A DNA stretch of 64,000 bases from Apus apus (lineage: Eukaryota > Chordata > Aves > Apodiformes > Apodidae): the NCBI RefSeq assembly GCF_020740795.1, contig NC_067282.1:145996858-146060857 (forward strand). Reading direction: 5' to 3'. Below, piece by piece: positions 19,647 to 48,889 of this stretch; position 1 is the stretch's first letter; each line of letters opens with the position of its first letter. Both the position numbers and the translations under genes were made by a program. The notes beneath the pieces were generated by a model. The model saw nothing but the letters and a program-made list of their open reading frames with translations, had not been told where the DNA came from and did no database searches.

Positions 19647-22600
19647 TTAGTCCATCTTCCATACCTTCACCTCTGGCCAGCTCTTGCTCTTGACTTGCTC
19701 CTGGCTGACACTGGAAGTGCTGATTTCTGGGGAAATGGGCGCGTAGGAACGGAGAGACAAGCTTGCTGCAAGCAGACCCATCCGGACACAGGTATCTGTG
19801 TCATGTTTAGCAAGCATCCCTGCAAGGATTCCTGCCATTAAGCTGTGGACAGAAGGAAAGGCAGCTTTTAACACTGGGGGAACAGCTTCGATCTCAGGAA
19901 TCATAGAATAATATAATAGAATGGTTTAAGTTGGAAGGGACCTCAAAGATCACCTGGATCCAACGCCCCTGCATGTGCAGGGACACCTCCCACTAGACCA
20001 GGTTGCTCAAAGTCCCATCCAATCTGGCCTTGAACACTTCCAGGGATGGGGCATCCACAGCTTCCCTGGGCAACCTGTTCCTGTGACTCACCACCCTCCC
20101 AGTGAAAAATTTCTTCCTAATGTCTATCTTAAATCTCCCCTCTTCCAGTTTTAATCCATTACCCCTCGTCCTCTCACTACAAGCCCTTGTAAAAAGGAAC
20201 CTGGCTGTTCAGCTGTAAGAGCATTCATTTGGACCCAAACCAACATTTATAGAAGCAGAATATATCACCGAGGAGGGGTGAGGTTATATTGAAAAGGTTT
20301 TGCTTATTTATTTTGTTTTAATTAAAATAACAACTAATGCTGTTTAATCACATTTTCTTTTCTTCTCATCTGAGAAGCTGAGGTACTTTCCCATTCTACC
20401 ATGTTTTCTATTCTCCCCAGTTTTCCAGATGAGGCAGGAGAAAAGAAAGGAATCTAAGAGGGGCAGAATCTCTTTTTCCCTTGCTCTTTAGTTATTTTGA
20501 AACTTCTCTGCTCCTTGTTAGTGCATTGTTACCATTCCCTCCTTTCCCCAAAGGGGTGGGTGGGAAAAGAGGAATAGAGTTTCCATATATATGTGAGAGG
20601 GGCAACAGGCACAGCTGGAGAAAGAAATCCAAAGCTGAAATGAGATTGTAGATTCAGATTTTAGTAAATTTTTGCTGTGGGTTTTCATTTGAGATATCCC
20701 AGTAAAAGTGACGTGAGTGCTTGGAATAACAACAGTCTCCCACAGGTCCTCACAAAGCACCAAGGAGGCCATTAAGAGAAGGGAATGACTTTGCCACCTG
20801 CCTGGCTTGCAGGGGAAGTCTCTGTTGAGGCACAGATACCTGCAGGGTGGTGATTGTGATCGACTGGGAACAACTGCTGCTTATTCATAGTGAAGTACGG
20901 TAATGAAGCTTGGAAGCTAGGAAAGGACAATCACAAGTGAAAGGAAAGATAATGACATCTGAGAAGAAGAAGCAAGGACAGGAAAATGTGATGGCAGGGA
21001 GGATTAATGAGCAAATCTACTGGGGAAGGGGAAAAAATCTCTTTTTTGTGTGTGCTCTGACTAATTAACTCAACATCTTTTTGTCTATAACAAAGGCCCA
21101 GGAGATTACGAATTCCATAAACTATTCAGTCTCTCGACAGCTCCAGGAGTTGAGGGTAAATATTTAGGGGAGCATCCCCTAGCAATGCCGTGTGCAGGCA
21201 CGTGGTGTTATGTTGTCAGGGCAGCCAGGTGCAAGGCACAAACAGCTGCTGCTCCCTGCACACACACAGGGCCCCTGGGCAGCATCTCTGGAGTTCCAAA
21301 AGCCTCTGGGTGGGAGCGAGGCGTGAGGTGCCCTGGAGCAGTGCAGGGGTTCTTGGGGGCTGAGTTGTGCCTGTGTTACAGCCCTGGGTTTATACCCTGC
21401 TGCATAGTCCCTTGAAATTGCCAACAGCCTGGGCAGCTTTACTCGTGGATATGCTGTGGAGGTGGCACGTGTGTCACTGTGGTGTTCCGGCATTTCCAGC
21501 CTGTTGTTCACTCTGTAGAACAGGGATTGCTGCAGCTCAGTGGAGCAGCCAGGGGTTACCAGGAAGGAAAAGCCTGGACAAACAAGAGGACTATGAAAAT
21601 TTCCACATGGACCTGGGGATTCTGGGGAATGGGATTTCCAGACCAACATGACCTCAGGAGTGGGAGCAGTAATGGGCCCCTAGCTTTCAGCTAGTTTTAA
21701 AAGGAAAAACAAACTTTGACTACTCCTGTGTAACTCAGTGAAGATGTTTGGCAGTGGCACACTTTATCTCACCTTTGCTCTTCCCTTAAATTAAGCTTTT
21801 AAATAGGGAAAGGAAACACTAAAGAAGATATTTGCTTTACATTAGCCTCTAGAAAAAAACTTTTCAGAGGATGTGTCCCTACAGGGGCTGGCAGAGGTTG
21901 GGCAAATCTGCTAGAAGCAGTGAGCAAAGCTGAGCTTTCCGTAGGACAGGCAGACCCCACAAGGTTACTCCCAGCCCCAGTTCCTCTGCTGTTACACTTA
22001 CTGTCCTGAACAACCCTTGGGTCTTCTTTGGAGAAGACCAGCTTGCTGTTGCCATTGACTCATATCAGAGGTGATCTGGGACACAAGGAGTATGTCCCGG
22101 TGTTAAGTGGGTTAGCCAGCTTGGAAAGAAGTTATTGATTGATTCTAACTCAAATATTGAGGATGCTGTAAGTTGGTTTTTTTGTTTGTTTGTTTGTTTG
22201 TTTGTTTAAAAAGACTTGTAATTCTGCCTACCCATAGAAGAAAAAAGATGTGTTGCTATGTTGTTAGTCGGTAAGAGTAGAAAAATAAAAGGACATCTCT
22301 GTCATCTACAGACTTTTGGTCTAGCCTAAGGCAGCATTAGGATAACATCAATTATTGTAGTGTACAAAGCAGAAGAAAAAGAAAAAATAGTGACTTCTAC
22401 AGATAGTTTGACAAGAAGCATAATAAAATATTGCTCTGACAAACTGAGAATTGATCAGTGGGGCTAGGAATAATACCTGTCATTCCCCACTCCTATGCAC
22501 AGCGTTGTGTGAACGGCCGGGCCAATTACACAGCAGCTGCTCCTGAAGCACGAGGCGCTGCCAGAGACAAATGCAGGGCCTGATCAAATGCCCCTACAGG

Positions 22601-25600
22601 GTAATTTCAGCTACTGAGTGGCAGATCGCCCTCCCTTGGAGAAGCGTGGAAGTAAAGTAGTCAGTTAGTAAGACAGCTTTGATGTAAGGTGGTTTACTTT
22701 GCTTTTAGCAGCTCGACCTGGACTAATCCAGAACTACTAGATGGCCATGAAAGATTTGGATCTTGAAGAAAAGCAAAACTAATTATGGCAAGACTGGCTT
22801 CCAAGATGCTTAGGGGGACTTTTTTAGCAAGCTTTGCAAGGAATTGCAATAACCAGCCCTGTTCTTGTGCTCTTACTGTCTGTTCCTCAAGCAGCAGAAC
22901 ATTGTTTGCCTTTGCAGTAGAATTCCGAAGAAATCCAATTATGGCCTTTCCACATTCAGCTGGAGAAGACAAAGTCATGAGCAATGTACCTGTCACCGGC
23001 CCCTGAGACATTGACTATCTCCTCCCTGCTGATGTGGATGGCCGGGTAGTGGATGGCAGAGAGGCTGGCAGCAGCAGTCTGGGAGGGGAGAGAAGGGAAG
23101 TTAGTGGGAATTGCCCGAGCTGATAAGGCCTGGTGTGGCTGATGGCATCCAGACCTGCAAAGATGCCAAAAAAAGAAAAGGGAAAAAAAAAACAACAAAA
23201 ATGCAATAATCTTTTTTTTTTTTTTTTACACTTTGAAAGTGATCAGCTATTTAAATGAAGTTTCCTGAAAGTGAAGCTGGCACTCATGAATATTCACAGT
23301 GAGCACATTTAAAACTAGCTGACTATAAATACTGCTGATAGGAGCCAGCAGTACATGGACAGACAACTTGATTTCCTTCAGAACTGTGTGTTCCACCCCC
23401 AAAAACACACACTTGCCAGCACTGACACCATGTTTCCCAGGACTGCTGCCACGCCACCAGAAATAGCAACAGTGCTGTATGGCTATAGCAGCTGAGAGCT
23501 CAGAGCTTGTTTCCTGTGCCCTTACCTGTTTGTGGGCTCCTGGGTGAAGAGAGATGCTCCCTCCCAGGCTCTTGCCACACAGGAGGACACCGTGAGTGCC
23601 AAGGGTCACCACCACACAGCACAGGTGGGCCAGCAAAGGGCGGGCCAGGGCCATTGCAGTCTGGACAACATCCTCCAACCCAGATGGCAGCTCTTCAGAC
23701 AGCAAGGAGGAAAAACTGTGATGTAACTTTGAAGGTGCTTGACTGGCCTTTTTTATGGGCTGGCAGCCTATTTATGAGCATCCACTACTACTATTTATGA
23801 GCACTTCTGAAATATGGCTGATTTTTTTTTTTCCCTTTAAATCATGAGAAACATGTAATTCTCCAATATTAGAGTTCCCCACTGTACATCTCTCCTATGC
23901 TGAGGAAACCACCCCTCATGGGACTAAACGCGTCTGTAGAGATAAAAAACCTGTCCTGAAGCATTATTTCCTTGTCTTAACGCTGTTGGATTTCCACCTG
24001 CATGTCGTGGGCTATTTTGTTTCTGCAAAGGGTGGTTCTGTTGGGACAGGCCCCCTCAGAGCACCCTGATTCAGAGACACATTTACAAACCAGAGGTCGT
24101 TCCTGTTTAGCTGACAAAGTGAGGCAAGTGGGATCTCTGGTTTTGGACAAGGAGCCATCCAGGCCCACTGTGTTCTCTGACAGTTCATCGGTCCAGCCTG
24201 GGCTGTACAACCCCCTCAGAGATGGCTGCGAGGCAGAAGACACCCAGAGTGCTTACAAATCCCCACTGTGTTATAACCCAATTGGCTTGAAATGGGGGCT
24301 GGAGCAGAAAATACTCTTCTCCAAGATGTAGGTTACCTAAGAGTGTGACTAGCCCTTCTGAGCATGCAATACCTGCTGGCAGAGGGTTCCCGAGGGTCCG
24401 ATTTATTGCTCTTAGCTCTTGCAGGTTGGGGGAAATGTACGTGAGCGCTTTCCAGCTGTCTGAGAGGAAGGGCTTAGAGGCCTTGTTCTCATCTGTGGGC
24501 TCATAGCACACTTCAAAACAAAATTGCAATCGGTTAGTTAATTAATTAATTAGTGGTTCATCTGTACATCAGAACAGGATGCAGTGTAGAAGGCTGAGCG
24601 TGGTCTGCACAACTGGGGTTATACGTATAATCTGTTAGATACTGAAATGCAATTTCCACCCTGCTGGGCACAAGGTCTCCCAGTGTTTCCTTTCTGGTGC
24701 CCAGCAATGACGCCACTGCTTTTGGCTCAGGAGAGATATAATCTGATTTCAGGTTTGTTACTCCTCTTAGCTGGTTTTGGAGCCTCTGCCAGATTTTAAG
24801 AACATTGTCTCCTTTTTCAGGATTTGCTTTTAAAAATAAAGGTATAAGATTTAGGAAGCCTTGTGAAAGGTCCTCAGCATACCAAGAGAAGGGGTTACGT
24901 ATCTTATAGGAAGTGAGAGAGAAATCCTCTAAAACGAGGCTTTAGCACTTATTCTGAGAAGCAAACTGTATGTCTGCTCAAACTGGCAGAAACACACACA
25001 TTTGTGCTTGCCATGAGATTAAAAGCAACGAGAGCAGCTTTCCCTGGCTTTCTGGCAGTGCCTGAGGGCTACGGCACCTACACCACAAGTAATGTAATTT
25101 AGCTGCAGAATGAGAAAAACACTGGGAAAGCAGAAAGCCTTTTTGAGACAGAGCAGTAGAGCATAAAAAGGAGCACTGAGTAACACAGCATGTCAGACAA
25201 TAACTGGGTATCTCCAGCAAGAAACACTGGAGAGAGTTCAGTGTGTGCAGAGTGTCTTGACACACGCACTGTCAGGAGCTACAGGGTCAGGGCTGGGTGA
25301 ATTCTCCTTACCTGCTAGCTGGTGCTCTCTAGCTAGTTGGCAGACATACTGAATAGTGGTAAGAGGCACATTTCCATCAATGCAAACTAGTGGGGCCTGG
25401 CACAGATTCTCCTTGAACTGGGACACCTAATGAGAATCCAGGAGACAGAATAGAGACAGTTTGAGTCATTGCAGAGGGACAAAATGACTGCTGTTCAGAT
25501 TCGGGATGTAGGATTTTCACTCATATTTCAGCCCTTAGGTGCAGGCATAAGCCTTAAAGAGTGATTCCCTAAGGAAAATGCATTTTTCTGGTTTTCTTCC

Positions 25601-28600
25601 CCCCTTCCTCTCCTTCCCTTGCTCCCTGCCATAAAGAACAGAGCTCAACTAACAGGGCCTCTACAGCAGAGAAGGTAGTTGCTGGTCCTCACTAGACTAC
25701 TTTGGTACATGTGGGACAGTCAGAGACCTATAGGGAAAGGAAATTATGCTATTTAATGTCACTGTAGGATTTTCTGTGCTGTGCCTGGCTTCCCTATGCT
25801 ACACATCATTTAGATGTCCCCTGTGCACAATGCCTTCTGAGACTGGTTGTACATCACAGTCTTTTGTGGGTCTTCCTGAATCGTGTACTGATGGGGGACA
25901 ATGGAGCAGTAGACTGGGGAGCTGCTGTTCCCTCCTTCAGCTCTCCAAGGCTGATCAACCTCTTCCTGAACACCAGCCCAGTGCTATAGGCACTCATGCA
26001 TCACCCTTCCACATCTCTGCTAATCCTGGTGGAAAGAAGGGCTGCCAGAATGCACTTTGCAGCAGAAGATTGGTTCAAAGTTTCCACTAGCCACAACTGT
26101 TTTGTAAAGCTCAGGAGAATTAATCTATCATGTAATGGTTTTCTGTGCCAAGGCCTGGGAGAGGCAGGGAGGGGATAGAAGTGGGAGTAATGACCATATT
26201 TTTCCCTAGGAAGTCTACCTCATGGGGATTCCACTGGTGGGTAAATTGCCCTTAACTTCTATGTTGCTGTCAGTCACAAAGCATGAGCTTTTGTTCTGTA
26301 AACAAAAGAATGAGGAGTGTAGTGGTGGGGCTTTCACTGAATCAGTCCTTAATCACTGCTTCCATTAACCTTGATGTTTTGAAGATTTGGATGTGCTGAG
26401 AAGCAGTGCCTGTTGATACAACACAGCATATAGAAACCACAAGGATGGTAGGGAAAGAATGGAACATGGAAACTTGCTTTAACCAGGGTTCTGTCCACTT
26501 TTTTTGATTTTCCCTAAAGGGAGAAATACTATTCCTGCAGATGGGCTGCATTTGTTGCTGGCTTTAAGGTGCCAAAAAGGTTAGCTGAGACTAGTTAGTG
26601 AAGAGGATTCTGACCTACATGTCATGGGATGATAGTAGTGACAATACTGTATGGAGTGGAAACAGAATCTCCATGTGGGTCAGCAGCAACAGCAGGCTCT
26701 GGTACTTTGCCCTCCTGCTATTGGAGTGGCCAATGTGAGGGGGTTAATTTTAGGATTTCCCATGTTCCCTCTGCACACCCATTCCCCCTGGTACAGCTTT
26801 GTCACACATCCACATTCCTTCTCAAAAGAAAAAGCTCACACAGCAGATGGCACGCTTACGTATTGCTCTGTTATCTGGTGGTGGATGTCCATATCTCCCA
26901 AGCCAATGCTGAGATCCCCGGCACCAGTGATCACAGCACAGTAAGTGGCTGTGCTCTTCCCCTCCAGCTGAAGGACAGCACTCATGTCCTAAAATAGGAA
27001 GGACAGTTATTTGATGGAGCTTGTTTCTCTTCCCTGCCACACTCAGCTCATTCTTTCTCTGCTCCCACCTGATCAGTACCCCAGCTTGCTGTTCTCCCTT
27101 CAACCTCCCTTCTACTTTGATACAGGCAACATTTCAGAGGTATGTTGGTCTAGATGATCCTGGTAGATGGCTAGTTTTTATTATTTCCAAAGAAACAGGT
27201 GCCAGGCTAAAGAAATTTTGCTTTTGCAAGTAAGTGTGACAGGTCTCTGCTATGCAGTTCCATAGGTTGCATCTCTGTCGTAACGGACGTCATCCTGAGA
27301 GTGGCTGCAGCGCTGCTTGCTCCAGCCATCCGTTCATCCATTTCCATAGCTCATGGGACACTTCAATGGCTTGCTGAAATGCTGGACATGCTTGGTGGCA
27401 TGCTCCAGCTAGTGTTTACATCAACCCCCTCACTGACTGCACAGCCTGATTTTGAGGGCAGCCTTGGAGCCATTTCTACAGCAGTGTCGCAAACTATGGG
27501 GTGTCCTTCCTCTGTGGGTCTTGTGAATGACCTGTTTAGAGAACTTCTGGCATTTCTTGGAATATACATGAGGACAGAGAAATGCATCATCCCCCCTACC
27601 CCAAGTAGTTCACAGGGAAGCTGAAGGTTTTAAGGAAAGGGTCCTTTCCAACACCAGTGGTAATGCTTTGTTACAGGCAATAATTGCTTGGTAGCTGGCC
27701 AGCTCATCCATTTTCCCTTGGCAGACTGCTCACTTTGATGGCACAAACTGTGCTGTGCTGGGTAGAGGAGGGATCACAGACCTGCTGCCATGAAGCCTTT
27801 ATTAACAAAAAAAGAGTTTTTGTTCATATTACTTAATTTACTGACTTGCTCAGGTAGCCCCATGTGCCCTATTTGGATACCAGGGCCCTGAGGGTACTAA
27901 TAGGCCTTAATGGCCTTGATCTGCCTCACCTGGGGTCTCCACCCACAGCTCTGCCTCTTCACCATGGAGGTGCCTAATGTCTTGTGCTGGGATTGCTCTC
28001 TTGGTCTGATCTGCTTGCTGGTTGGGGCTGGTGATGTCTCTAGTGAACTTCTCCTCCTGGCTTCCTGACTTGGGTGGACAAAGTGCTGCTGAGGTCAGGT
28101 ATGACTCTGGTGTATAGCTGGAAGGGGTCTATGTAGCTGTGTGGAGGATTCTTCTCCTCTGACCCTGGGAGGAATGTAACCTGGGCTCCTAGGGCCAGGT
28201 TTTCTCTGTCTTATGCTTTACCCAAACCAGGCTGATTCTGACATTGCTTTGTTTGTCCTCAGCGTCAGGCTTTGCATATTTCTGGCTGTGCTTAGGCTTT
28301 CCTGGATTTTTTCTTGGTTCCTCCTGATTTACGTCTTTCTCCTTCAAGTGCCACTCCCTGGAGCTGGATTCAGACCTGAAGGTTCAGTCTCCAAACGGTA
28401 CATGCATCTGGACTGTGTTTTGGGAGGGTGGCTCTTTGCCTTCTAAGTGGAACTAAAGCAGCATTGAATTTTTCCTACTTTTCCCTCTGTGCAACATACC
28501 ATGTGGTGACAGTAGTGCAGGATGGACTCTGAATGTTCATCCTTCCCCACAGCTGATAAAAAGAGAGGAATCTGTCCCAGACGGCTTAAACAGTCTAAAA

Positions 28601-31600
28601 GCAAATGGAAGCAAAAGATGTTAATAAACCCACCAGGGTACTGTGAACACAGAGACAGCCTGTGCAGGCTGTGTTAGGTAGCAAAGCCCTTCCATGGAAT
28701 ACTTAATGCCCATTGATCCTAGTCTAGAAGCATGTTTAAGGTGAAACAGCCACAGCTGCTGCAAATGGCTGGCTGGGATTGGGTGGAGTGATTTAAGCTT
28801 GCCTGCTGCACTGGTATTCTCAGTTCTCTAGATTTTTTGGAACATATGGGAGTGAAGGAAAAGAGAAGATGGGGGAAGAAACTTCTGCACTTTCCTGGCA
28901 GGGAACTTCTCCTGTACCATTGCAGGCATGTGGGCTTTCCCACATGGCTTCTATGCACGGCCTTTCCTGCTGCTGGCTTTCCCACACTGCTGTTCCCACC
29001 ACACCATCTTACTAGAATGACTGAATCTGAATGGATTCACAGGAAACCCTTCCTCCTCTCCCTTCAGGTTACCACAAATTATACCTCAGTGGGTGGCATG
29101 GGTGGCTTTTTTTTTGTTTTTTTTTCCCCTCAAACTTCTCCATTTGTGATCTGAGGTGGCAGTAGATGTGTTAGGAAAATTTGAGAAAGGTCAAAAAAAC
29201 AGAATAATCCTAAAAACCATTTTGCCCCTACTAATTTCAATATCTGAAAGCTAGTCTGCTGCTGCTTGTGCTGGAGCACAAGGTACAGTGTGATCCTTTC
29301 CTGTTGCCAAGAACTGTTGCCCTTTCTCTTCTAAAGTAATTCCTGCACATCGGTTCCTCTTGTCTACGGTGCATGGATGATCACCTTTGAATAATCCTAT
29401 TACTTATTACAGTTACTACTTGAATTCTTGCTCAAGACACACTTGTACTGTGACTATAACCTGGCATTTATTGAACACCGAGAGCCAAGCTGTTCAGCAG
29501 TCATTGGAGATAATTCGTGCTTGTTTAACTTTGATTTGGGGTCACTGTGCTATATACTTGCTAACTTCATATTTGCGGACCCTTCTTTTCCTGACCCCAA
29601 CTCCCTGCCCTCTTATTTCTTGGAATAGCCCCTGCCTTTTCCAGGCAGTCTGACCACTTATATACTGCCTAACATGTCCCAGATCTTAACAGAACTCAAG
29701 AGCTCCTGCTACTGAAGGAATACCAAAGGACAGATCACAGCTGGCATGCACGCACAGCCAAACCCATGCACTAGGCACCTGCCAGGTTTCTTCCAACGCC
29801 GCCAAAGGTTCGTCTCACTCTTCCAACATTCGTTTGCCCACCATCCTGGAAGAATGAATTGTTTATTGGCAAAGCTGGGAGGGGTGTTAGGGATAAATGC
29901 TAAGTCTCCATAAGCACGTGAAGTTGATGTTGCTGAAACATAGGTCAGCAATTAGAGGAGCAAAAGGCATCTAGGTACCAGATGGAGGGCAATGCAGACT
30001 TCTACAAGCCATCTACAGACTTCAACCCTGATGCCAAAGGCCTGCTTCTCCCCATGCACTGCTATTTTGGTCTTATTTGCTTAAGAGCTGTTAGGGTAAT
30101 GCAAACGAGTGTTTCAGCTGATACCAGCAGCCCTCCAGAGATACTGCCCCAGACCTGCTGGGCTCTGCAGCTGTCTTCCAGGCTACTTAGCTCCTCCCTT
30201 AAGCAGTCTGGGGTTTGGGGGTTTATTTATTTATTTTCCTCTTTGAAAGTAAAATGAGATTTGTTACCTTTCTCTGTGTTGTCACTGTAACTTTACTCAT
30301 GGAAAGATCTGTTTCAGTGTTTGAATACTTTTTCACTCACTCTTCTCTTCCCGCATCTTTCCCTCATCAAAAATACCCTTGTTCCCCACCTGTGTGGTTA
30401 TCAGCTTCTCTTCTCTTGCCTCTGTCTTCTATTCCTCTGTCCATTAGTCTGTGACAAACAGCCAAATTGTCAGAACACAGGCAGTCCCTCACCCACCTCC
30501 CTCTCCTTCTATTTCTTCTGCTGGAGGAATGACATCTGTGAGTGCTCAGATCGATTTGGGCTTCATCTGACTATCAAATAATTGTAAAGCTCCTGTTTTG
30601 TAAAATCCTGAACCATATTTTGCATTTCTGAAGACTGCTTGCCACTGGCAGCCATAATGAACTTCACAGTTCTAGATAATTCATAGCTTTCAAGAGTATG
30701 GCAAGTGTTTGAGTGGCAAGTGCTGAAGCGTGTGCATGCCCATACACAGCAGCTCCTGGCCCAGCTTCTCTCTGCCCCATGTCAGCCCAGGTGCACCAGA
30801 ATACCCCTGCACGCAGTTTTCTTGCTTGTAAACACCACCATCTATCCTAAGCAAGTAAATGTAGGGCTATTTCACAACAGAAATACTCTGCTTCCAACAC
30901 GCCATTGTTCTTGGACATTCCCAAAACTCATACTGGAGCTCTCCAAGGAGCCTCCCTCCCTCTGTACATCTGTCCTTTGCACACAATGTTCTTTTTTTTT
31001 TTTGCATCCAACCCTATGACTGTAAGAGGCTGCTCTCTCATCTAAAGATGTTCTTTCATTACCCTCTTTTGACCTCCAGGCTGTTTTTGTTTGCCCTGAC
31101 TCTCCCCAGTTCTATAGACAGTAAGACTTGGTGCTAATTCTTCATACCTTTGCTTTTCTGTCTGGTAGTTCTCCAAACCCTGAACGTTTCAGACCACCAG
31201 CATAGAACTGACTGTATGTAAGTAACCTATGGCCTCTGTCCATCTTTTCACTATTTTTCATTCATTAACCCAAATGCCCCACTCATACATTTGTTCATAC
31301 TCCCTGGGAATTGCTAGTGGTACTGCCAGAAATGAGGATGTTCCCATCTGCAAGTGTCTCCTGTTGAGTCTTGCAGATGTTGAAAGCATTGAGCTTGACT
31401 ATTTTAACTCCAAAGCTCACTAGCCATAATAGAGGCTGCCAGGGAGGGAAAAACAAAAACAAAAAAACCCAACAGAACAAAACCACCCTACCCCAAAGTA
31501 AAAAGCAAGGATGCTCATTTAGGCAAGCCAAACAACATGGCTTTGAACTCTAGCCCCTATTTCAATATTAAAAGAGGGTATTAAATGCATCTGTAACGAG

Positions 31601-34047
31601 CACAAACTCCATTCTATGCAGCCACACTCTTTTTCTACACTGATGCTGGCAGGAATGCTGAAAATACTCATGAGCTCATTTTGGTGTCTGGCATGCTGAT
31701 CTTCTCTTTTAGTCCCACACACATTCCAAAGGCAGAGTTTCAGGCTTTTTATGCCAAGCCTTGCCCTAACAGCAGATGTACCAGCCTCCCGCTCAGGGAC
31801 CCAGCTGTGGGTGACCTCTGCTGTTGTACAACCCCACAGGGCCTCAAAGAACTGAAGATGCTAAATCTTTCTTTAAAGTAATAGGTGGGTGCAGTGAGAG
31901 AGAAATTAGCAGCCTGCTTTTGAAGCAAAATAAATGAACAGCTCCTACTGCACCTTGCCAGCTCAGCCTGTATCTCTGAGTGGTACCTGTGTCTCTCTTC
32001 TGTGTTGTGTTCAGGTGGGCCTGGCTGAGAGGAAAGAACTCAGAAGAAAATGGACCTACTGAGATGATTTGAAATAAGACTGAGCTGATGCTTTCTGGCA
32101 GTTTTTCAGGGAAATGAGAGTCTTTGGGATTTTCTTCCATGTCCTAAGAGGTCTGAGATCCTAATGTAAAAATTACTTTCCTCAACTTCTAGGTATCCTG
32201 AGAGAGTTATAATCATAACACTTCTTCCAGCATCTTTCTCTGAGCAAGATTGTGCATTGTCTCTGCAGATCAGAGAAAGCACTTTGTTTCTGGAGAGCCT
32301 TGAAAGTCACAAGGGAATTACAACCAGGAGAGAATACAGCTGCTTTCTTGCTGAGACAGTATGAGGTGTGAGTGATACCCCAGCACTCTGCAACAAATCC
32401 AGCATGCGTAAGGATGTGACCAGCTGGATGCTGAGCCCTTTGAAAAAAACTCTTTAAAAGCCAAAACAAAGGAATGCCACTGAGAGTGCCTTTTCCTCTC
32501 TGCCTAACCACGACAGCTATCAGCAGGAACATTCTGGCTGTCAGTTCCCAAATCCTTCTGCAGCTTGGCTTTGGGGTAGCAGACACCATGGACCATCACC
32601 TCGAGGGCTTGTTGCTATGCAGATGGGCAGCTAATGTCTCTAATGTTGGAATCTCCTTCCTTTTCTCCTGTCAGCTGCTCCCAGCAGGGTCTACAGCTGT
32701 CCTTGGCCCCCCACCACACCATGAGTGGGTCCAGGGATCTGCACTCATGTCTGACACACCAAGGAGTGTCTGCCCACCCTTGGAGAGAGTTTAGTTCCTT
32801 GTCCTGATACCTGAGCATGGGGTACGTATGCTATCAGTTAGATCACAGATGAAGCAGTGAACTTTTAGTTTTGCAAGTCTTCACAGCTGATGCCACAGCA
32901 TGTGTCACCCTTGATCATTATAATACTGTCTGGCCTCTGCTTCTGTATAATCAAATAGCCAACTTCCTTAAGGACAGCTTCCCCTGCAGGCCTTTCCCTG
33001 CCTGACTGAGAGGTCTTCACAAACTGCCCCATCTGACAGCAGGAGTTTCTTCTTCAGCAATCAGCATAGAGTGTTGTGAGAAATGAAACAACTTGTGAGC
33101 AAGCTTCCATCTGTAGTACTTCATTTAGCTCCACAGAAATTGTACATGCCATGCAAATGGTTGTCATTTGCATGAGGAAGTCCCAGGTCTGCTCCACTTC
33201 AGCTTCTTTGATGTTTCTGAGTCAAACCACATTGAGAGGGAGAGGGACTGGTAGAGATGTAAAATGTTCTATCTTTTCAAAGCAATCTTCTTTTTTTTTT
33301 TTTCTTTTTTTTTTTTTTGGTGACTCAAATATCCTTTATGGCTGAGGAAGCTGGCTCTCTTGTTTAGCTGTAACTGTGTCAGTAATATTTTTATCAAAGC
33401 TTTTTACCACTGTGGGTATTCTTCACAGAGACTTTTTCTCCTATTCATGCTGCTTTCCATAGCTAAGACAGTCCCAGGCAGCCAGAGTTGGCTCTTACCT
33501 GGGGATTTCCTTCCCATAGGGTCTGTCCTTGAAGTAGAGATTGTCACAGCACAATGAGGGTCTTTACCCACTGCTGCTAACTCTTTGCATCTACGTTTTG
33601 AGATGCCCTGGGCAGCTCTGCTGCTAAAGCAGCTCTTTGGGTTTATGGCATCAGAGAATAGCCCCAAGGCACCTTAACATAGACAGTAGAGGCCAGAGTC
33701 ATATTGTAGAGACTGCAAGGATGATACACTCAAGACAGAGATAGAGCAATGTCAGGGATAGTGACTTTCAGCATGGGAACAGAATAGGTCATTATGTCCA
33801 TTGCCTACCTAGACAACACACCAACATATATGCTGTACTACACCTCCCAACTTTGTGCGTGTGTGTACAGACATGTGGATGTCATGCATGGATACCACCC
33901 TCCTCCCCACCCTCCTTTGTCTTGACATTCCTGTAAAAGGAGCTGGAAATGGCAGTGGTGCTAAGAAAATGGCTACAGATACAGTACCAGGATGACAGGG
34001 TTCTGCGCCTTTGCTATAAAGTCAACGTTGATACCTCCAATCACCAC
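19647..34047 (-). CDS. PfkB/ribokinase-type pseudouridine kinase part (residues 355-705)
   Basis: Nine exons encode the kinase half. It opens with [13 protein letters not shown] (355 onward), the usual first strand of PfkB kinases. Next comes the N-terminal PfkB signature [18 protein letters not shown] (387-404), then an aspartate-rich segment with [16 protein letters not shown]. The exon at 26988-26860 gives TATYCAVI and [11 protein letters not shown]. The exon at 24510-24373 gives [13 protein letters not shown]. The exon at 23692-23526 gives [12 protein letters not shown]. The anion-hole motif and catalytic base are present as NVSGAGDS, with Asp640. The last exon follows with a Met-Ala-Gly-Ile-Leu helix start and a Lys-rich tail ending KMD and TAA. 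Nothing is broken. The neighbouring glycosidase domain makes pseudouridine the likely substrate. Confidence 0.88.
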
Positions 34048-37000
34048 CTTTAAGAAAGAAGGAGAGAGGTAAAAAGTGATTGGAAGGACTTGAGGAAAAA
34101 AATTCTAAGTCTTCTTTGCTTTTCCTAGTCACTTTTCCCACCCTCTTGAAAACAACCTAATTTACAGTGTGAAGGCCTGTGCTTATTTTGGGTGGCTGGA
34201 CACAGGTCTGTACAATCCTGATGAGAAAGACTCAAAATCCTGTGTGATGTACTCTAGGTGATCTTGCTCTGTCAGGGAGGGTTGGACTAGATGATCTTTC
34301 GAGGTCCTTTCCAACCCCTAAGATTCCGTGATTCTCTTCTATATGTTGCTTTCTGAATTATACCTGTTCATAGCCAGCCCCAGCATGGCAAGTGGGGTGT
34401 TATTGTGTAGACATATGGGTGCTGGTGGTCTCTGTGTGGTGACAGAGTAACATAAGAAGGTGTACAGGTCTGGCCCTGTCAGTGCCCTTGAAGCCATCTC
34501 CCTTGGGACAACTTCTGACATACCAAACCTCAGAAAAATTCAAGCACTGCTCTGTAAAAAAGCAAATAAAATAGGGAAAAACTGGGCAGAAAAATGCAGG
34601 AATTTCTTGCAAGGTCCCAGGAGAAATTGCCATGCCCAGTGACACTGTATGGATCACTGTCTTACAAAGCCAGAAAAAAGCAGCACAGCTCAACAAACAG
34701 GAAGTTTCCAGATTCTTTGGGGACATACAGCTGTTTTTTGTCATTCCATCAAATGCTGTGTTACTGTCTCTGGAGTCACTGCCCTCTTTTATGTTGACAA
34801 ATCCGACTGCAAATGGGTTTTAGAAAATTTTTCAGCTCTCAAAGACTACCTAAAATAGATTTCCTGTGAATTATGCGGCACACACAGAACTCAAGAAAGT
34901 GAATAGAGTATTAGGGTTATAATGGATCTTGTTTGGAATATGCTGTACCAACAAAAATATATATTTATAACACATGTATAGCTCAGCAGCTCAAAATATC
35001 TCCCTCCACCCTCTTCCAGGTCTACTCCTGTAGTCACAAGTTCTCTGGCACTGAGAGCAATACAGTTCAAGTGGTAAGTAAGGGCACAGTAAAAGGTGAA
35101 AAGGTGATTAAATGGATTTGATGGTTTAAGGCTTAATGGAATTACACCAGTGTCAGTATTTATTCCCTGCAAATGTGGATAGGGGGAGGAGGAGAGGATA
35201 TTTATCTGAGAAGAATGGAAAATACCAAAGAGAGAATGTCTACCAGTGTGAAGCAGAAAGATTGGTCTCTGGCTGAGTCACCTTCTACTTTTGGGAATAG
35301 ATATAAAATTAACCTGTGCTGTCATCAGAGAGGCATTATATGGAGGGCAGCAGGGGACTCACAGGCTGAGGTGGGGTTGTGTCCTCTTGCTGAGGCAGGT
35401 TCCCCTTCCTTCTGGCTTTCTGTAGTTTGCTCAGGGCCACTGCAATGCAACTGCCCACTCTGGCATTGTTCTGGATCAGAGCAAGGTCTGTTTGGCATTT
35501 CTTTGAGGAAAAGAAAAAATACCAGCAAGATGGACCTGTCAGAAGGCTATGTAGGAACAGCCTAGAGGAGGAAAGTAGAAAATACGTGCTGTGACAATTA
35601 TAAGGTTTGATCCTCCTAGACCACAATGCTTTGGGAGCACATATACTGGGTTATAATACTGCATGAACACCCTGATTTTTTTTGGTTTTTTTTTTTACCT
35701 TTCACCCCCTGTGTCCATGAAGAGGAAACCTGCCATCTCCATTTGATAGTTATGGAGCAGAAGCAACAGCTTCAGAGAGAAAAGCGTCTAAAAACCTTAG
35801 AGGAACATAGCCAGCCTTTTCAGAAAGAGATGCCTAATTACATTTTTGCCAAGTCTCTATAAGCCTTTTTTTTTTTTTTTTTTTAGCAGTTTCACTGGGA
35901 GCAGAGTGTCAGAGGCTTTGAAAGCCCCACTTTGTAGCTCCACCCAGCTGTAACATCAAAATGCCTTTGCCAACCTGTCCTGACTGACCAGGTCTCCTAT
36001 AGGGCTGGCAGCAGAGCCTGCAGGTGAACCTGGCTCTCCCAGACCTTACACTGGCATCCCAGCCAGTAGGTCTTCTTTCCTCTTGCATGTGCAAGAGGAT
36101 TCTTGCTCACTCAGAGGTGTTTTTCTTCCAAGTTTCTCTTACTTTGCACCCAAATGAAGAGTTGGACAAGGCAGTGTAATGCACAGCACAGTGCTCTGGG
36201 AAGCCCAGGTACCTTCCAGTGTGCAGCCCCACCACAGACAACAGTGCCCTGAGATTCCATCACAGAGCAGGCAAGCTCACAGATCAGATGTGAGGGATCT
36301 CTTTGGGCTCTGGACAACCTGCTACCTGAGCTGGCCTCCAATTTTTAATGGAAAAGTGGATGAGGACACCAAGGATGCTCCTGAAAAAGCAGGATGCTGT
36401 TGCTAAGCTCTCATCTGTTCATTGATTCTGAAGTGTTTGCCCCTTGCTAGACTGTCAATAAAGGGACAGTGTTTTTCACCAAGCACTATCAGAAGAGATA
36501 TGAAGTACACTTGAGTACTTTTTCCCCCCACTCAGTGAAAGGATACTGGAGTCCAGAGATTTCCCATCAGTTAATTCATTGAGCTTCTGTAACATAAAAG
36601 GGGTCAGTTCTTTGCCTGTGATCCCTTTGGACCTGCAAACATGAAAGAAAATGCCTGCAGATGAGAAGGACTGAGCTAAAGCAACATCAGTGGCTAAACA
36701 CTGCTGCTAGCAGATAATTTATCTCCATAACCACATCCTATAAAAAGTTCTGAAAACGAACTTCAGGTTAGATAAAGCTACAGTTGAAAGCATGTTGTGG
36801 GCTCCCATGCCCAAGGTTAAGCTGTGCTACAGCTCCTGCAGCAGCGTCCCCAAAGTTATTTACTTCCCCAAGACCACTGGGTGAGCAAAGGGTAGGGCTT
36901 AGGTTGCTTCTCACCTGGCTTCACTAAGAGCTTGCTGGATGGCCTCTTCGATGGCCTGGCCAGAGGCAGCTCGCTCCTGGGGACAGGGCACTGCTATCAG

Positions 37001-40000
37001 CACCCCGCTGCTCAGGCCTAGCCCCAGAGCACTGGCTGGGAGAGGACAGGCAGATCATTAGCAGTTCTCCTTGGATAAACCAAATGCTGAACGAAGAGGA
37101 CAGAACAGAGTGGGAGCTGGGTGACGGAACCCACAGAGATGGCGTTCCTGTTCTTAGCTGACTTGAGGAACGAGGTCTTTTCCTCTCCAGCTACTGATCA
37201 CTTTATAGCTGCCTATTTCTTTTGAGTCTGTCTGTACAAAAAAAAAGGGGCAAAGAATTTTTCTTTTAAAGAAAACTGGTTCCACTTCTGAGGGTCCAGA
37301 AGCTGTTTTTGTGAACACATTCACATACGTGTTCCCTCCACCAGAGTAAACAAAACATGTACGAGCATGCCAAGGTGGCTGCAGCTGGCTAAAAAACTTG
37401 CTGTAAAGACTGAACTTCCCTGCTACTTCATTTTCAAAGCACGGAAGCAGGAATGGGGAGGTGAGATGGCTTGGTGTTCAGGACAAACTCTTCTCCAAGC
37501 GTAAAAACGGAAGTGCCTCATCCAAGGTGATATTAATGTCATTTTTTCCCAGGGCCCTACACAGGCCTTTCCCTGCTGAAACACACCGATCAGTTCAGCT
37601 GCCTCCTCTTCATCGCGGACATGATATGGTGCCTGGAAGCCACTCTGGCGTGAGAAGAAGGCTGGGAACTCCCTTGACTCCCCAAAGGCAGCCACACAGA
37701 CTCCCTGAGTCTCCTGCAGGAGTGGAGGTGAGACAAGCAGGAAATTAGTGGAGGGAAAGGGGGCCCACTAAAAGAATAAGACTTCTTTCTATTACCCAGC
37801 TAGAAACTGCCTTTCTTCAGCACAGGGTTTGGTTATTTTTATACAACCCATTCTATTCCTTTCTATAACCAATGTTTTTCAAAGCAAAGAGCCAGACATG
37901 GTAACTGGTTAGAGATAATCTGGCTTATTGACAAATAGGAAACATACATGTCCTTTGTTTGGATTTGGAGTTGATCAAAAGCCATGCAGCTGTTGTCAGT
38001 GCAATACTGAGTCCAAGGTAACAACCTGTGAACTGAAGAGAAGTCATGAGTCTACAGGAATATAAATGAGCTCAGTTTGCAATTGAGAAGTATTTACTTT
38101 GGCTGTCACTTGACATGCTGGTCCTGGTGATTTCCAACATACCAAAACTTAAAAAGTTACTCTACTGAAACAATCTTGATTCCCATTTTAATTTGGATTT
38201 TATTGTAGTGGTTGATGGCTCTAGCTTCCCTTATCCATCAGTTCTGGAGTTTTTTCCCAGAAAAACAAGTCTTAAGGCCAGAGAAAGAGGTGTGGCTAGT
38301 GCTGCCTTTTGCCTCATTTGGAACAGATGCTGGAACAGCCCCTTGAGCATGGAAAGATTTACATTAGGGAGCAGCCAAGTGCTTGTACAGACCCACGACT
38401 AGAGAGCTGCAAATATGGCATCACGTTCTTTCCATAGTAATTCTAAAAAAATCTTAGGCTTAATGCCTGCCCCATTGCCAGCGGGCATTCTGCACACAAA
38501 GTACATTATCTGCTTTTGGGCTCAGCAGCCCATGCTACCTACCAGATATTCCAGTGTCCTGCCAATATCAAGGATAGATTTGACTCCTGCAGATACAACA
38601 GCAACCGGAGTTCGTCCCAGCTCTGTCAAGTCAGCACTCACATCCAGAGCTGTGAATGGACAAGCAGCTCTTGTCAGTGACTGTGTCATACTCTAAGCTG
38701 ATGTGATCTGCCCTCTCAAAAAGCTGTACCTGTCTGGGATGCCCTTGCCTCCTTTTGCAACCACTTAGAGCCACAAACAGATATTGCAGGTGTAGATCAC
38801 GCCTTTAGGTGTTGAGATTGAATGGGATATTGACAAAAAAGAAGTCACATGGTTTAGGGCAGAGGTACAACCTTGCCCTGTCTTTGGTCACATTGATAAA
38901 CACCATGTAAAATTTGGTGCAATAGAAAGAAGGTCTTATACAGCAAGGACAAAGGTCAAGGAGATGGAATATAATTTAAGCAGATTTTGATTTTGGTATT
39001 GCCATCACTGACAGAGTAAGTGCCACAGGAGCTTTGCTGACCTCAGGAAACTCCCTGGTTCAGATTTTACATCACATCTGAAAGGGATGGCATCTAGCAG
39101 GGCAGTGCACTTATGCCATGCTAGGAATACATGTGGCTAAGAAGAGAGAATGTATTTAAAGGTCACAAACTACACTGCCAAGGCTGGGCTGTGTTTCAGG
39201 TTTCTGAGAGAGGACAACATGCCTCTAATGCAGACCAGGGCCTGAGTCTCTCCTGGTGAGACTCTTCTCCTCAGCTGAGAGCTGATAAAAACACTGTGCT
39301 TGGCAGCCAGTATCAAGTTATCCAGCCATTATGAAGTGGGAGAAGTACAGTCAGGTCCTGTTGTGCCAGCACACAATCTCCATATCACCCCGTGTAAGCA
39401 AAGGATAAAGAGAAACTCCCACCCTCTTAACAACTGGCCAGTGCTCAAGAGGAATATTTTGAAGCTTCTGGAAATGAGACACCAGGGAGAAAATAATCAT
39501 ATAGTTTGGTCAAGAAGAATGACAGCTTCACTCTTAGCTGACAGTTACTGCAGGACAGACTGGGAAAAAGGAAAAAGATGAAATTAAATAAAACAGTAGC
39601 AATATAGAGAGAAGTGTAATGTATTGATTTTCTTACTGTTCTCTCCTCCACGATGGACACCTCCTATGCCACCTGTCACAAAGACAGGAATTCCTGCTTT
39701 GTGAGCAGCAATCATTGTTCCGGACACAGTAGTGCCACCAGACAAGCCCTGTCAAGGGACAACCAGTCACAGTCAGCAACCACGGTGACACAGAGAATAC
39801 CACATGTGGGTAGCTATGGTTATCTGACACGCAGCAATGTCACAACAGCCTGCTGTCAGCAGCTGACAAGTGAAATTCTGATACAAATATTCTATTAGGC
39901 AAAAACGCAGAGGAATAATTGTCCCTGCTGTGTAAGCCATTCTGCTGCTGATGATAGCAATGGCCTTTGTTCTGCAGGGCTTTCCAACCAGAAAGCTTCA

Positions 40001-42481
40001 CAGGCAGCTAGTGTCACCTTAGGCTCTGGATGGCCTGCTTGCCACATAGTTTACAGGTAATGTGACAATACCTTATCATGCCAATAAGAATATTCTTAGC
40101 CAAACGCCTGTGGCTTCCCAGCCTATCCAGAATAACTTTTCAGGAGCTCTATTTCATGGCTGCTACTGGCTTTCTCTGTTGTATTTTGACTCTAGATAGG
40201 ACCACATTTGAGCTTATCAGTAAGATACCACTTTACATTATATTTTCCAAGCCATCTGGCTTGAAGCTGGAGATGACTACACTATTGCTGTATAGAAAAC
40301 ACCACAGTAGAAAGTCTGCATCCTGTACCTGGCTAAGGACGAAAGGAAGATCTCTCCGAGACACTTTAAGTACATTTTTACTGCTTGCCAAGAACTCAAT
40401 TTCCTCATCTGTGAGTCCCAAGTGGATTCGACCCCTTAAAATACCTACAGTGGCTGGCACTGCTCCATTTGTTTTTACAATTTCTTCTACCTCTCTGGCC
40501 ATGCTAGAAAAAGAAAAGCAAGACAATAATCACAAAATTAGTGAGGCAAACAATCACACAAGCAAACTTCCATGTCTGATGGCCATCATTCCCAGTTTCC
40601 AGTTTTATACAGTTCTTGTGGTTTCAGCTAAGTCTAGTTCCTCTTCTGTATCGTCCTAATGGCAGAAGTCTTTGTACTTGAATTTGCAGATGTGCAGAGC
40701 TCCCATTTCAAGGACAGCAATGTCCAAGCTCTGTGCTTCATTTTTGAGAAAAACACAATTGGTTTACAGGCAAATCTGGTTGTACGATGAACTACTGAAA
40801 ATAGGGATCTTCTCAAAATAGGAGTTTTCCATCCCCATTACCTGTTATTTCTCTGAGAATACAGGCCTTCACAGAAACCCCAACTTCAAGCCCTGCTCAA
40901 ATGACCAGGATATATTTTTCATAATACAAGCAGTTAGATATAGAATAACAGCACTGCCAAAAAGCTGCAGCTTGAGGATACTCTAGGGCAGCAGACTAGG
41001 TCTTTCTAAGTTTTTCAGGTCTTATACTTGATCATTTGTATGCCATCCCTTTTTAAAAGCATTTTCTTCTCCCTTTCTGACCTGTGTGTACATACACGAG
41101 GCAATCTTTAACTGCCTCCCCCCCCCAACTGAATTTTTACATCTTCATTCTAACACAGAATGTCAGGCAAAATAATGGCCAGGTAAAAAGTAAGATGGAA
41201 AATCAATACTGAAACCTTCCAGTGCTTTTTGGAAGCAAGGATGGAGGGGAGAGTGTAATGATTTCTGGCACTGTAACTCAGTGAAACACAAAACTACTGA
41301 ACAGCAGTAAATAAAGGGTAGAGGTGGAGATTTTTCTATGCAGGGCACAGAAGGCAGCAAGAGCTCACAGTAACTGCTCTGAGTGGAGCTAAGGAACAGA
41401 TTTCACTATTGTGTTCCAGTCCTTTTTGCATTACAAAAGACATACCAAAAGAAACTGCTGAGTGTTTTCAATGTCTGTACAAACTGTGCAGCAGAAAAGA
41501 CTGGTAGCTGTCTCTTGGAGCAAGTGATGGCATTATCTGCTGCCACATGTTCAAGGAAGGCAGAAATGTAAGCTCTTGGATAAGGAGATAAACAGGATGC
41601 CCATTTGCATTCTTAGAAGTCCAAAAAAAAATTTTTGACACCAGAGCTCTTAATCTGCATGCCTAACAAACTGACATTTCCATTTGCTCTTAAAAGGGTT
41701 TTGGCTTGACCAAGAATACTGATATCCATCGCCCAGTTATATGCCTTACAGCTTTGTTGAACAAGAAACATCAAAATCCACCACCTCAGATTCTGAGGGT
41801 AGGCCATGCCATGTGTAATGATGGTGCTTTCCAAGGCTACGACTGGTCTCCCCTCCATCAGGGCCTCCTGTACAGAGGGCTGAATTCTGAAATAAGCACC
41901 TGGGGATAAACACAGAAAAGTGAATTGTTTGTGTATTTGCAGTAACTACTGAGCTCTTTTATAAAAGACAAATTGTCATCATCACAACAAATTTATCCCC
42001 TCACTTCAGCTGTTCTTTGGGGTGAATTCACAAACAACTTTATGAAGACTAAAGCTCTGGTTTATGTAAGTGAAATATTTGCAAAATATCTCTACTCTTA
42101 ATATGAATAATAATCTTCCTCATCCTCACTGAGTGCTCCTCTGCCATTATCTTTGCAGCTGGGTTGTCATTGGCTCCAGTAACATTACTATAATGAATAA
42201 GACTGTGAACAAACTGAGCACTGCAACTGTACCCAAAGAAAGATACCACAGTAACTCAATATAATACATGACTATCACGCATGTTGTTCTTTGCTTTGCT
42301 CCCAGAACACTGTTAGTGAGGACCCTGCTGCATTCAGATGACAAAAATATTTTCCACCCAGGAGCTGTTTCAGAATACACTACTCACCATGCAGAAATCT
42401 TCTCACCTGGGTGGTCCCACACACCGCAGCAGACACACGTCTTCCCAGGCTATAGGTTATCTTTCTAATCATCTTGTGCAT
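19647..42481 (-). CDS. Bifunctional pseudouridine-5'-phosphate glycosidase / pseudouridine kinase
   Basis: Complete gene, 18 coding exons, 705 residues. The kinase half should phosphorylate free pseudouridine; the glycosidase half then cleaves the C-C bond of pseudouridine 5'-phosphate to uracil and ribose 5-phosphate. Exons in transcript order: 42481-42388, 41899-41785, 40503-40329, 39748-39637, 38649-38543, 37713-37587, 37035-36915, 36632-36547, 35487-35363, 34047-33988, 29845-29779, 28594-28500, 26988-26860, 25426-25312, 24510-24373, 23692-23526, 23078-22990, 19842-19647. Every junction is GT-AG and every phase matches. Layout: leader 1-36, PsuG about 37-340, linker to 354, PfkB kinase 355-690. 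The length fits a fusion of the two roughly 310-residue E. coli enzymes and resembles the fungal bifunctional protein (S. pombe C1861.05). The largest intron is 29846-33987. The two weakest donors are GTATCC after 36547 and GTGGTG after 41785. I give no gene symbol because I know of no settled vertebrate one. Confidence 0.92.
19900..20216 (-). mobile_element. CR1 LINE 3'-end copy, antisense to +
   Basis: Read on the minus strand this is a CR1 3' end. Its features are the phrase for 'lose/win versus competing group averages' seen on + as ccaggttgctcaaagtcccat, cactagaccaggttgctc, and the terminal repeat tail at 19900-19925. Its 3' end stops only about 60 bases before the acceptor of the last PsuG-PsuK exon, inside the final intron and in the same orientation as the gene. 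Confidence 0.85.
22180..22207. repeat. (GTTT)n microsatellite
   Basis: About six to seven copies of TTTG in a row lie in the last intron of the PsuG-PsuK gene. Likely polymorphic in length. Confidence 0.9.
34232..34335 (+). mobile_element. CR1 LINE 3'-end fragment
   Basis: Contains gttggactagatgatctttc, then gaggtcctttccaacccct and a gattccgtgattct tail, the standard CR1 3' terminus. It lies in the PsuG-PsuK intron between the exons at 34047 and 35363, opposite to the gene. Confidence 0.88.
36547..41899 (-). CDS. Pseudouridine-5'-phosphate glycosidase (PsuG) domain exons
   Basis: Seven exons, 41899-41785 through 36632-36547, encode most of the PsuG fold; the exon at 35487-35363 completes it with [13 protein letters not shown]. 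Aligned by memory to E. coli PsuG (offset 23-24 residues), the known active-site residues are kept. Glu55 lies in [12 protein letters not shown] (E. coli Glu31). Lys116 lies in KVSRRDLPF (Lys93). His is kept in GGVHRG. Asp172 lies in DVSAD (Asp149). Lys189 lies in AGVKSILD (Lys166, the residue that forms the Schiff base with the opened ribose). PAFFSR is also kept. One difference is visible: the E. coli ANPIPE segment reads AVPCPQE here. The domain looks functional and complete. Confidence 0.92.
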
Positions 42482-42491
42482 TTGGATGGTC
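42388..42491 (-). CDS. Start exon with predicted mitochondrial leader
   Basis: This exon follows an acceptor reading ttatctcag (minus strand) and carries 10 bases of leader before the ATG at 42481-42479. It encodes [15 protein letters not shown], then [16 protein letters not shown], and ends in a GTGAGT donor in phase 1. That phase fits the next exon, [14 protein letters not shown]. The first 40 residues hold five Arg and two Lys and no acid until Glu43. RRFLHG matches the R-x-F-x-x-G pattern of octapeptidyl-peptidase sites. The ATG at codon 4 has A at -3 and may be the real start, giving 702 residues. Confidence 0.75.
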
Positions 42492-44298
42492 CTGAGATAA
42501 CAAATGTCAGGTAAAGTGAAAATGAAGTAATTTAGCAATGATGTGACCATGTGAAGCTAAAAGATATAATCTCTTGCCTTGATCTGGGAAGGTAAAAAAT
42601 GCTTGCTCAGGAGATAGCCTGGAGACTCCTGGTGTTTCAAGCATGACTCAGGGTGAAAGCAAAATATTAAGCTGCAGAAATAGAGTTGGAAGAGTTCACC
42701 TGGCCCATTGTCAATGCTGGGCTGAAATCATGGGGGAGCAGAAGAAAGGATGAAGAGTAATGAACTAGAGAGAGTTCAGAAGTAGACAATCTTTTGATTT
42801 CCAAAGCTATTTGCTCATGATAAATTGCAGGCTCAGTCACTGCCACCTCCAACCTGAAAAATCACAAGGAGAAATTACAAGTTGGATGCAGGCAGAGGAA
42901 GACCATAAAGAGATGAACCTTTTTTCTGCCAGTGTCTAGGAGGAAACAAGCAGTTCAGTCAAACAAAGAAAGGAGCCGAGAACTGGTAAACCAGGCTAGC
43001 TACAATGAGGAAAGAGCAGCTTTCCCTAGAGCTGGGAGGGCTTTATGTAGGCTCACATTACATTATCCTTCTTGGTGCAAAGCCTTGGAACCAGAGTGGC
43101 AATTCAGCCCCAGCAACAAACTCCAGAACTCCTCTGGTCTCTTAGCAACTCCTATTCACTTTAATTAAATTCATTTCCAAATAGAGAAGGGGGTGGGGGG
43201 GGGCGGAGAGTTGTGAAGGTTAAGAAACTGGTCTGGCCTGGGCCTCAGGGCAGTTTCACTCAGTGCCTGGCTGCTTCACATACTTTCCCTAGGCATTTGG
43301 CCATCTTTTTCCAGCCTTTCTGTTCCTCACCCCCTCACCAGGTGGAAAGGACTCCTTTCTTCAGTCCCTTGCACCTATTGTTAATGTAGATGGTAAATAA
43401 ATTAGAACCCAGTACTGTGTTTGTGTTGCATTTAGCACAAAATGGCTCTGACCTCAGTCCACTGTGTGACATGACAGCTACACAGAACCACTGTACACTC
43501 AGGAAGAGGTGTTGTGGTTTTTTTTTGCCAAAATCTAAAGACTTTCAGCTATACGGGACAGCCTGGGTTGTATAACACACAAAAAGAGGGAATTGCTCTT
43601 CTAGCCGTCTCCAGCCATCAAGGCAGATGTTTTTATAAGATGCAATAAACACCTGACCAAAACTCTAAGAATTTTTTCCACTTTCCAAATACTTTCAAAG
43701 ACAAAAATCTTAAGTTTATAGAATCATACCTTGATGCAAAAGCTATTATTTTGTGGTTACAACCTCTGCCTGTGCAGTGCTAAGTTCAGCTACCTGAGCA
43801 GTTTGTGCAAATGTTCTGGCTGTGTGTGCGCACACAATCTTCGCTTTCCAGGGCAAAGTTAGCTTTGGAATAAATTCATTAAGCCTAAAGGGTTATGCCA
43901 AGGATCAGTTGAGCAGCTTGAGCTGTGCTCTGAATTTTAACAACCCCCTGAACTCCAAAGCATGACAGCCAGGAGTGCCCAAGCTGTGCTGGCCGGTGGA
44001 TAAAAACCAGCTGGTCTCCACCTGAAACCAAATACGACTTAGCTGGTGTTCACTGGAAACTCAGCCAAGGCTCAGCCCGAGCTGGCTGAAAGAGTTCTGA
44101 AGCTTGGCAAGTTTTGCAGCGAGACCCACCTTGACCTTTCACCTTGTAATGAAACTTGGTAGATTCCTAGTGCAAGTTTCAGGCAGCTCTAGCACAGACT
44201 GGCTTCCCTCCCTCCTCCAAGCCCTCCCTGCTCGCCTCCCCTCCGGATCGATCCGGCACATCCGACCTCCCGGAGCAGTGGCCTGGCATGTCTCTTAC

Positions 44299-44440
44299 CT
44301 CTCTGGGCGTCCCTCTCCGTGGGGAGGCTGGGTGGGTACTGGAGCAGTGCCTGGGCAGTCCCAGGCCGGGGGAGCCGGCAGCAGCTCGGGGTGTGCAGGC
44401 TGTCACTCCTGGCCGAGAGAGCCCATTTATTATTAACCAC
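44299..44440 (-). promoter_or_regulatory. Promoter and noncoding first exon of PsuG-PsuK gene
   Basis: On the minus strand a good GTAAGA donor follows the base at 44299. The GC-rich exon before it contains no ATG, so it should be 5' UTR, joining the acceptor at 42492 about 1.8 kb away. Just upstream, at 44437-44425, the minus strand reads GTTAATAATAAAT. This could serve as a TATA-like element or an HNF1-like half-site. The start site near 44395 is inferred. Confidence 0.5.
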
Positions 44441-48850: not shown

Positions 48851-48889
48851 TTACCGTGGCAAAAAGACGTTTCTCACCCCAAATTAGCA

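Follow-up and report, generated by a model that had tools for sequence, protein, structure and literature searches.

The two steps of pseudouridine breakdown, by a kinase and a glycosidase, have been described for an Escherichia coli enzyme pair and for Arabidopsis (PMC9247573). In E. coli the enzymes, PsuG (YeiN) and PsuK (YeiC), are specified by two separate genes with the kinase gene first, while the Arabidopsis enzymes PUMY and PUKI are separate proteins located, from the title of Chen and Witte 2020, in the peroxisome. According to PMC9247573, metazoa, amoebozoa and fungi have both enzymes on one chain; members from zebrafish, fly, nematode and yeast are aligned there, and their function is said to need further investigation. 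Here we describe a PsuG-PsuK gene located in a 64,000-nucleotide stretch of the Apus apus genome (contig NC_067282.1, positions 145,996,858 to 146,060,857; referred to below as the window). Judging from its sequence, this gene very probably works and specifies a bifunctional enzyme that degrades pseudouridine.

The predicted protein resembles the PsuKG proteins of zebrafish, fly, nematode and fission yeast (PMC9247573) and PUG1 of Candida albicans (PMC12411936) in having PsuG first and a PfkB kinase second on one chain, although these were compared by description only. With the E. coli enzymes it shares 51% identity in PsuG as well as the catalytic and most contact residues, but it differs from them in being one fused chain. 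An earlier note on this DNA had proposed an intact glycosidase-kinase fusion gene, and our analysis leads to the same view, with one open frame, both domains, and conserved catalytic and most contact residues. We regard it as a real and apparently functional gene, and a sound further example of a known enzyme rather than a new system. The enzyme type is known from animals and fungi; what is added here is a predicted mitochondrial presequence, together with the observation that the order of the domains is the reverse of that of the bacterial genes.

In the proposed reaction sequence, the C-terminal PfkB domain would use ATP to convert pseudouridine to pseudouridine 5'-phosphate, and the N-terminal PsuG domain, with a pocket comprising Glu55, Lys116, Asp172 and Lys189, would open the C-C glycosidic bond to yield uracil and ribose 5-phosphate. 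Fusion would keep the phosphorylated intermediate from accumulating. This fits a need to avoid that intermediate, since the plant pair prevents a toxic build-up of pseudouridine 5'-phosphate (title of Chen and Witte 2020). We infer expression, both activities, the location and the physiological role of the bird enzyme.

Gene structure

The gene model was built from tblastn matches of E. coli PsuG and PsuK, together with splice sites and the open segments between them. Searched against the window, the two E. coli proteins gave a series of exon-sized minus-strand matches in collinear order, between 41888 and 26854, and apart from these one isolated weak match on the plus strand (5432-5512). The resulting gene possesses 18 coding exons, all on the minus strand, extending from 42481 to 19647 and amounting to 2118 nucleotides including the stop codon, or 705 amino acids. 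All 17 introns, totalling 20717 bases, are of the GT-AG type with matching phases, and the sole stop codon is the terminal one. Over the same exons the frames offset by one and two bases carry 40 and 25 stops, respectively, and for this reason the open frame is not attributable to chance.

Three in-frame ATG codons (42550, 42481 and 42472) are candidates for the start, from which 42481 was chosen. Exon 1 (42388..42481, perhaps beginning at 42491) contains this codon and a putative mitochondrial-type presequence of 31 residues; it was placed by its phase-1 donor, which scored highest among those with an ATG start in the interval 41920-46500, and an acceptor lies before 42491. The rebuilt model agrees with the earlier note in its 18 minus-strand exons, GT-AG sites, consistent phases and 705 residues, and because the identical start codon was picked the residue numbering is also the same. 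The extent of the gene, which had been drawn up to 44440, needs correction: coding starts at 42481, and position 44440 can only belong to a 5' leader exon.

Glycosidase domain

Residues 41-330 match the Pfam family Indigoidine_A (PF04227) with an E-value of 6.3e-132 and 439.7 bits (cut-off 25.2), covering profile positions 2-291 of 291. The 51% identity to E. coli PsuG extends over 301 amino acids. This half is specified by exon 2 (41785..41899, with Glu55), exon 3 (40329..40503, with Lys116), exon 4 (39637..39748), exon 5 (38543..38649, with Asp172 and Lys189), exon 6 (37587..37713), exon 7 (36915..37035) and exon 8 (36547..36632), all placed by tblastn and the joined frame. The last of these has a weak donor, as judged by its score. 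Exon 9 (35363..35487), placed by splice sites and the joined frame, contains the end of PsuG and the linker.

A first scan of bacterial genomes using the whole bird protein found no relative, probably because the peptide patterns taken from it lay in variable regions. An alignment-based scan found at least 591 relatives of PsuG; the best 80 were kept and, with the E. coli protein, make up a set of 81. These 80 are the top-scoring relatives of one query and not a survey of bacteria. The four residues Glu55, Lys116, Asp172 and Lys189, which had been claimed to be intact, are indeed all present; they align with Glu31, Lys93, Asp149 and Lys166 of E. coli PsuG, each in a column invariant among the 81 proteins. 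Active-site roles were reportedly assigned to these four E. coli positions by Huang and colleagues in 2012. Altogether, 59 of 60 columns invariant in the bacterial set are conserved in the bird protein. Since the 80 relatives share two short search motifs by construction, the count was repeated leaving out the motif positions, and 48 of 49 invariant columns proved to be conserved. Among further columns at least 95% conserved, 35 of 43 are kept.

The closest solved structure to this half is the pseudouridine-5'-phosphate glycosidase 8k05 (E-value=3.3e-99). In the structure-match alignments the variant 8k06 has Ala at the position equivalent to Lys189, as against lysine in 8k05, which suggests that others mutated this residue as catalytic. 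AlnA, a PsuG-family relative, matches the same domain far more weakly (E-value=7.5e-53).

Kinase domain

The C-terminal half contains a PfkB domain (PF00294) at residues 355-679 (E-value=4.6e-33, 115.3 bits, profile positions 5-298 of 302) and is 24% identical to E. coli PsuK over 320 amino acids. Among solved structures its best match is the Arabidopsis kinase 7c1x (E-value=1.3e-29), followed by E. coli PsuK 7vkp (3.9e-21), the probable sugar kinase 3kzh (4.4e-18), ribokinase (8.3e-9) and adenosine kinase (1.1e-4). In PMC9247573 the entry 7c1y is given as a pseudouridine kinase, and 7c1x and 7c1y have a common sequence.

With E. coli PsuK and 71 bacterial neighbours aligned to the bird protein, we checked 13 positions named in PMC9247573 as contacting pseudouridine or as catalytic. 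Ten are identical in the bird protein, S30 is replaced by Thr, and two differ (V166 by Thr515 and S167 by Asp516). Restricted to the core contacts, namely those to the ribose (N14, D16, G41, V42 and N45), to the base (Y97, M114, N143 and K170) and to N1 (S30), together with the catalytic D256, the tally is 10 of 11 identical, again with Thr for S30. In the species compared in PMC9247573, position 30 is either Ser or Thr. The base-reading lysine K170 is conserved as Lys519, and the kinase GAGD motif, which the earlier note had also listed as intact, was located at residues 637-640.

Four exons of this half were placed by tblastn or splice sites and the joined frame, with help from the kinase alignment: exon 10 (33988..34047; splice sites), where the kinase starts with Asn361 and Asp363, exon 11 (29779..29845; tblastn), with Thr379 and the motif GGVGRN, exon 13 (26860..26988; tblastn), with Tyr444 and Met461, and exon 14 (25312..25426; splice sites), with Asn490. 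Exon 12 (28500..28594) rests on tblastn and the joined frame. Exon 15 (24373..24510), containing Thr515, Asp516 and Lys519, and exon 17 (22990..23078), containing GAGD with the catalytic Asp640, were placed by splice sites, the joined frame and the kinase alignment; exon 16 (23526..23692), also kinase, and exon 18 (19647..19842), with the C terminus and the stop codon, by splice sites and the joined frame.

Comparison with bacterial loci

At 72 of the 80 bacterial psuG loci (the best 80 of at least 591) a PsuK-related kinase gene was present, in all 72 cases upstream of psuG and on the same strand. At the remaining 8 no kinase match was found in the locus DNA examined. No fused psuG-psuK was found among the 80 loci. 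The bird protein has the glycosidase followed by the kinase, the reverse of the bacterial gene order, and read-through of a bacterial operon of the kinase-first layout would therefore not yield the animal protein. These observations bear on whether the gene could derive from bacterial or fungal contamination, or from a recent gene transfer. Besides the absence of a fused form in the 80 loci and the reversed order in the 72 with a kinase match, the 18 exons and 17 introns lie between vertebrate-looking genes, in a contig no shorter than 146 Mb. Nothing was found in favour of such an origin, and we consider it exceedingly improbable.

Features at variance with a working enzyme

Several features weigh against a working pseudouridine-degrading enzyme. 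In the glycosidase half, the sole invariant column to have changed is P40, which is A64 in the bird protein, and 8 of the 43 columns with 95% or higher conservation differ. In the kinase half, neither V166 (hydrophobic clamp) nor S167 (water-mediated O2 contact) is conserved, although all 72 aligned bacterial kinases have V, I or A at the first position and S at the second, and the plant kinase 7c1x keeps V and S.

The V166T and S167D replacements, and the low (24%) identity to E. coli PsuK, would be in keeping with a fold that was retained while the substrate was switched, the kinase accepting another nucleoside or sugar and PsuG acting elsewhere (compare its relative AlnA). Yet the two nearest solved kinases are pseudouridine kinases, the Lys contacting O2 and the Asn contacting N3/O4 are conserved, and the residue contacting N1 is Thr; moreover, PsuG is nearest to the pseudouridine-phosphate glycosidases, with AlnA far behind. 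In the fly homologue even K170 is replaced, and because PMC9247573 still lists that protein as a homologue, we have not treated V166 and S167 as defining. A change of substrate is very unlikely in our opinion, and pseudouridine remains the expected one.

At the level of the gene, the donor of exon 8 (CCA|GTATCC after 36547) ranks at only the 46th percentile when all GTs on the minus strand of the window are scored. Alternative donors in the same phase (phase 1) occur after 36532, 36511 and 36487. That after 36532, 15 bases on, scores slightly above the one chosen, and its use would insert five residues; the scores given by the splice-donor weight matrix are rough. We retained 36547 because of the gap-free fit to E. 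coli PsuG at that point. A weak donor with in-phase alternatives may point to alternative splicing or to early decay of the gene. Furthermore, neither AATAAA nor ATTAAA was found in the 1 kb that follows the stop codon, the first being at 18627. Finally, pseudouridine is reported among the plasma metabolites of broiler chickens (PMC11294198).

The weak donor and the chicken plasma report could be taken to mean that the gene was recently silenced, its frame still open but expression or splicing having failed, in which case the species would excrete pseudouridine in the mammalian manner. Against this, the 705 codons in 18 exons contain neither a frame break nor an internal stop, and 48 of 49 invariant PsuG columns are kept when the scan motifs are set aside. 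With frame and invariant columns intact, any silencing must have begun very recently. We consider it very unlikely, and prefer to view the gene as a working one.

5' leader

A putative untranslated leader exon, with an uncertain upper end, was located at 44299..44440 on the minus strand; its donor (AGAG|GTAAGA after 44299) is at the 99.6th percentile. It is predicted that this donor could pair with the acceptor before 42491, ten bases ahead of the start codon. The putative leader contains, at 44426 and ahead of the main start, a seven-codon upstream open reading frame (MGSLGQE) which could lower translation of the gene. An HNF1-like site at 44425-44437, beside the leader, was considered as a liver/kidney switch and rejected as being near chance, since the window contains 4 matches against 1.80 expected and 12 of 100 shuffles reach 4.

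Predicted location of the enzyme

The first 31 residues possess seven Lys or Arg, no Asp or Glu, and an amphipathic stretch whose helical moment reaches the 99th percentile for the 559 31-mers of the window that begin at an ATG. Among these 559, which include the presequence, 8 have at least six Lys or Arg and no Asp or Glu, and of those the presequence alone reaches its moment. The protein ends in WKMD and has no PTS1; inspection by eye revealed no PTS2. The basic N terminus with its amphipathic stretch and the lack of a C-terminal peroxisomal signal favour mitochondria, and our best guess is that the enzyme is imported there, probably directed by the first 31 or so residues. The Arabidopsis enzymes differ in being separate proteins of the peroxisome, and the accounts of the metazoan and fungal PsuKG proteins in PMC9247573 and PMC12411936, as far as they describe these, make no mention of a mitochondrial presequence.

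Genomic neighbourhood and copy number

The gene is flanked on one side, tail to tail, by a gene with a dDENN domain on the plus strand (8840..9394, an open segment and not exon ends; Pfam dDENN E-value=1.9e-12). On the other side, head to head, is a plus-strand gene with a CCCH zinc-finger exon at 57194..57319 (Pfam zf-CCCH_4 E-value=8.7e-10). The latter has a CpG island at 48751-50250 and a likely first exon at 49423, a segment which gave no meaningful Pfam match; a second candidate exon (61233-61409) had no Pfam match. From these domains and from sequence motifs, the neighbours are probably DENND2A and MKRN1, respectively, and on this footing the flanks fit the neighbourhood proposed in the earlier note.

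No second copy was found in the 1.10-Gb assembly: 17 of 17 protein matches and all 5 PF04227 matches fall at this locus, though only the best candidates (20 and 7) were scored and a strongly decayed copy could escape. A search with the HAD_2 family for a pseudouridine-5'-phosphatase gave two matches elsewhere; an exon-by-exon search of this kind cannot show absence.

Two open segments, 19996-20208 on the minus strand and 48475-48807 on the plus strand, have a common peptide of the kind RTRGNG-KL...NRLPREAV(D/E)(A/S)PSLE-FK-RLD. They look like a dispersed repeat with coding-frame remnants, and resemble the CR1-type repeats of bird genomes.

Distribution and physiology

Mammals are generally without pseudouridine-degrading enzymes, with the exception of the platypus (PMC9247573, after Chen and Witte 2020), and loss inside the mammals is therefore already implied in print. 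The suggestion that the gene was ancestral and was lost towards human agrees with this distribution and with the fused form reported in animals by the same source; the distribution itself, being published there, cannot be counted as new. No study of a PsuG-PsuK gene in a bird was found among the matches listed in our literature searches (in some cases partial lists).

The further suggestion that birds may destroy pseudouridine draws support from an enzyme gene that is intact by sequence, but has to be put more weakly than it was, given the pseudouridine in broiler plasma (PMC11294198), which implies that any breakdown is incomplete. A second broiler metabolite table, in PMC11050574, also lists pseudouridine.

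Perhaps, and at somewhat less than an even chance, the fused enzyme is the means of mitochondrial pseudouridine disposal in birds. Imported by its presequence, it would convert pseudouridine that derives from mitochondrial rRNA and tRNA, or that has entered the matrix by uptake, to uracil and ribose 5-phosphate. The compartment would then be another than in plants, which use the peroxisome. With both activities on a shared gene, mammals could then have lost the pathway in one step, without a leftover kinase producing toxic pseudouridine 5'-phosphate.

Pseudouridine degradation in mammals is described as an open question in PMC9247573. An apparently intact bird gene offers a vertebrate in which to ask whether pseudouridine is degradable, in which part of the cell this would take place, and why mammals gave it up. 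The gene is relevant, too, to what becomes of pseudouridine from mRNA medicines in those animals which keep the enzyme.

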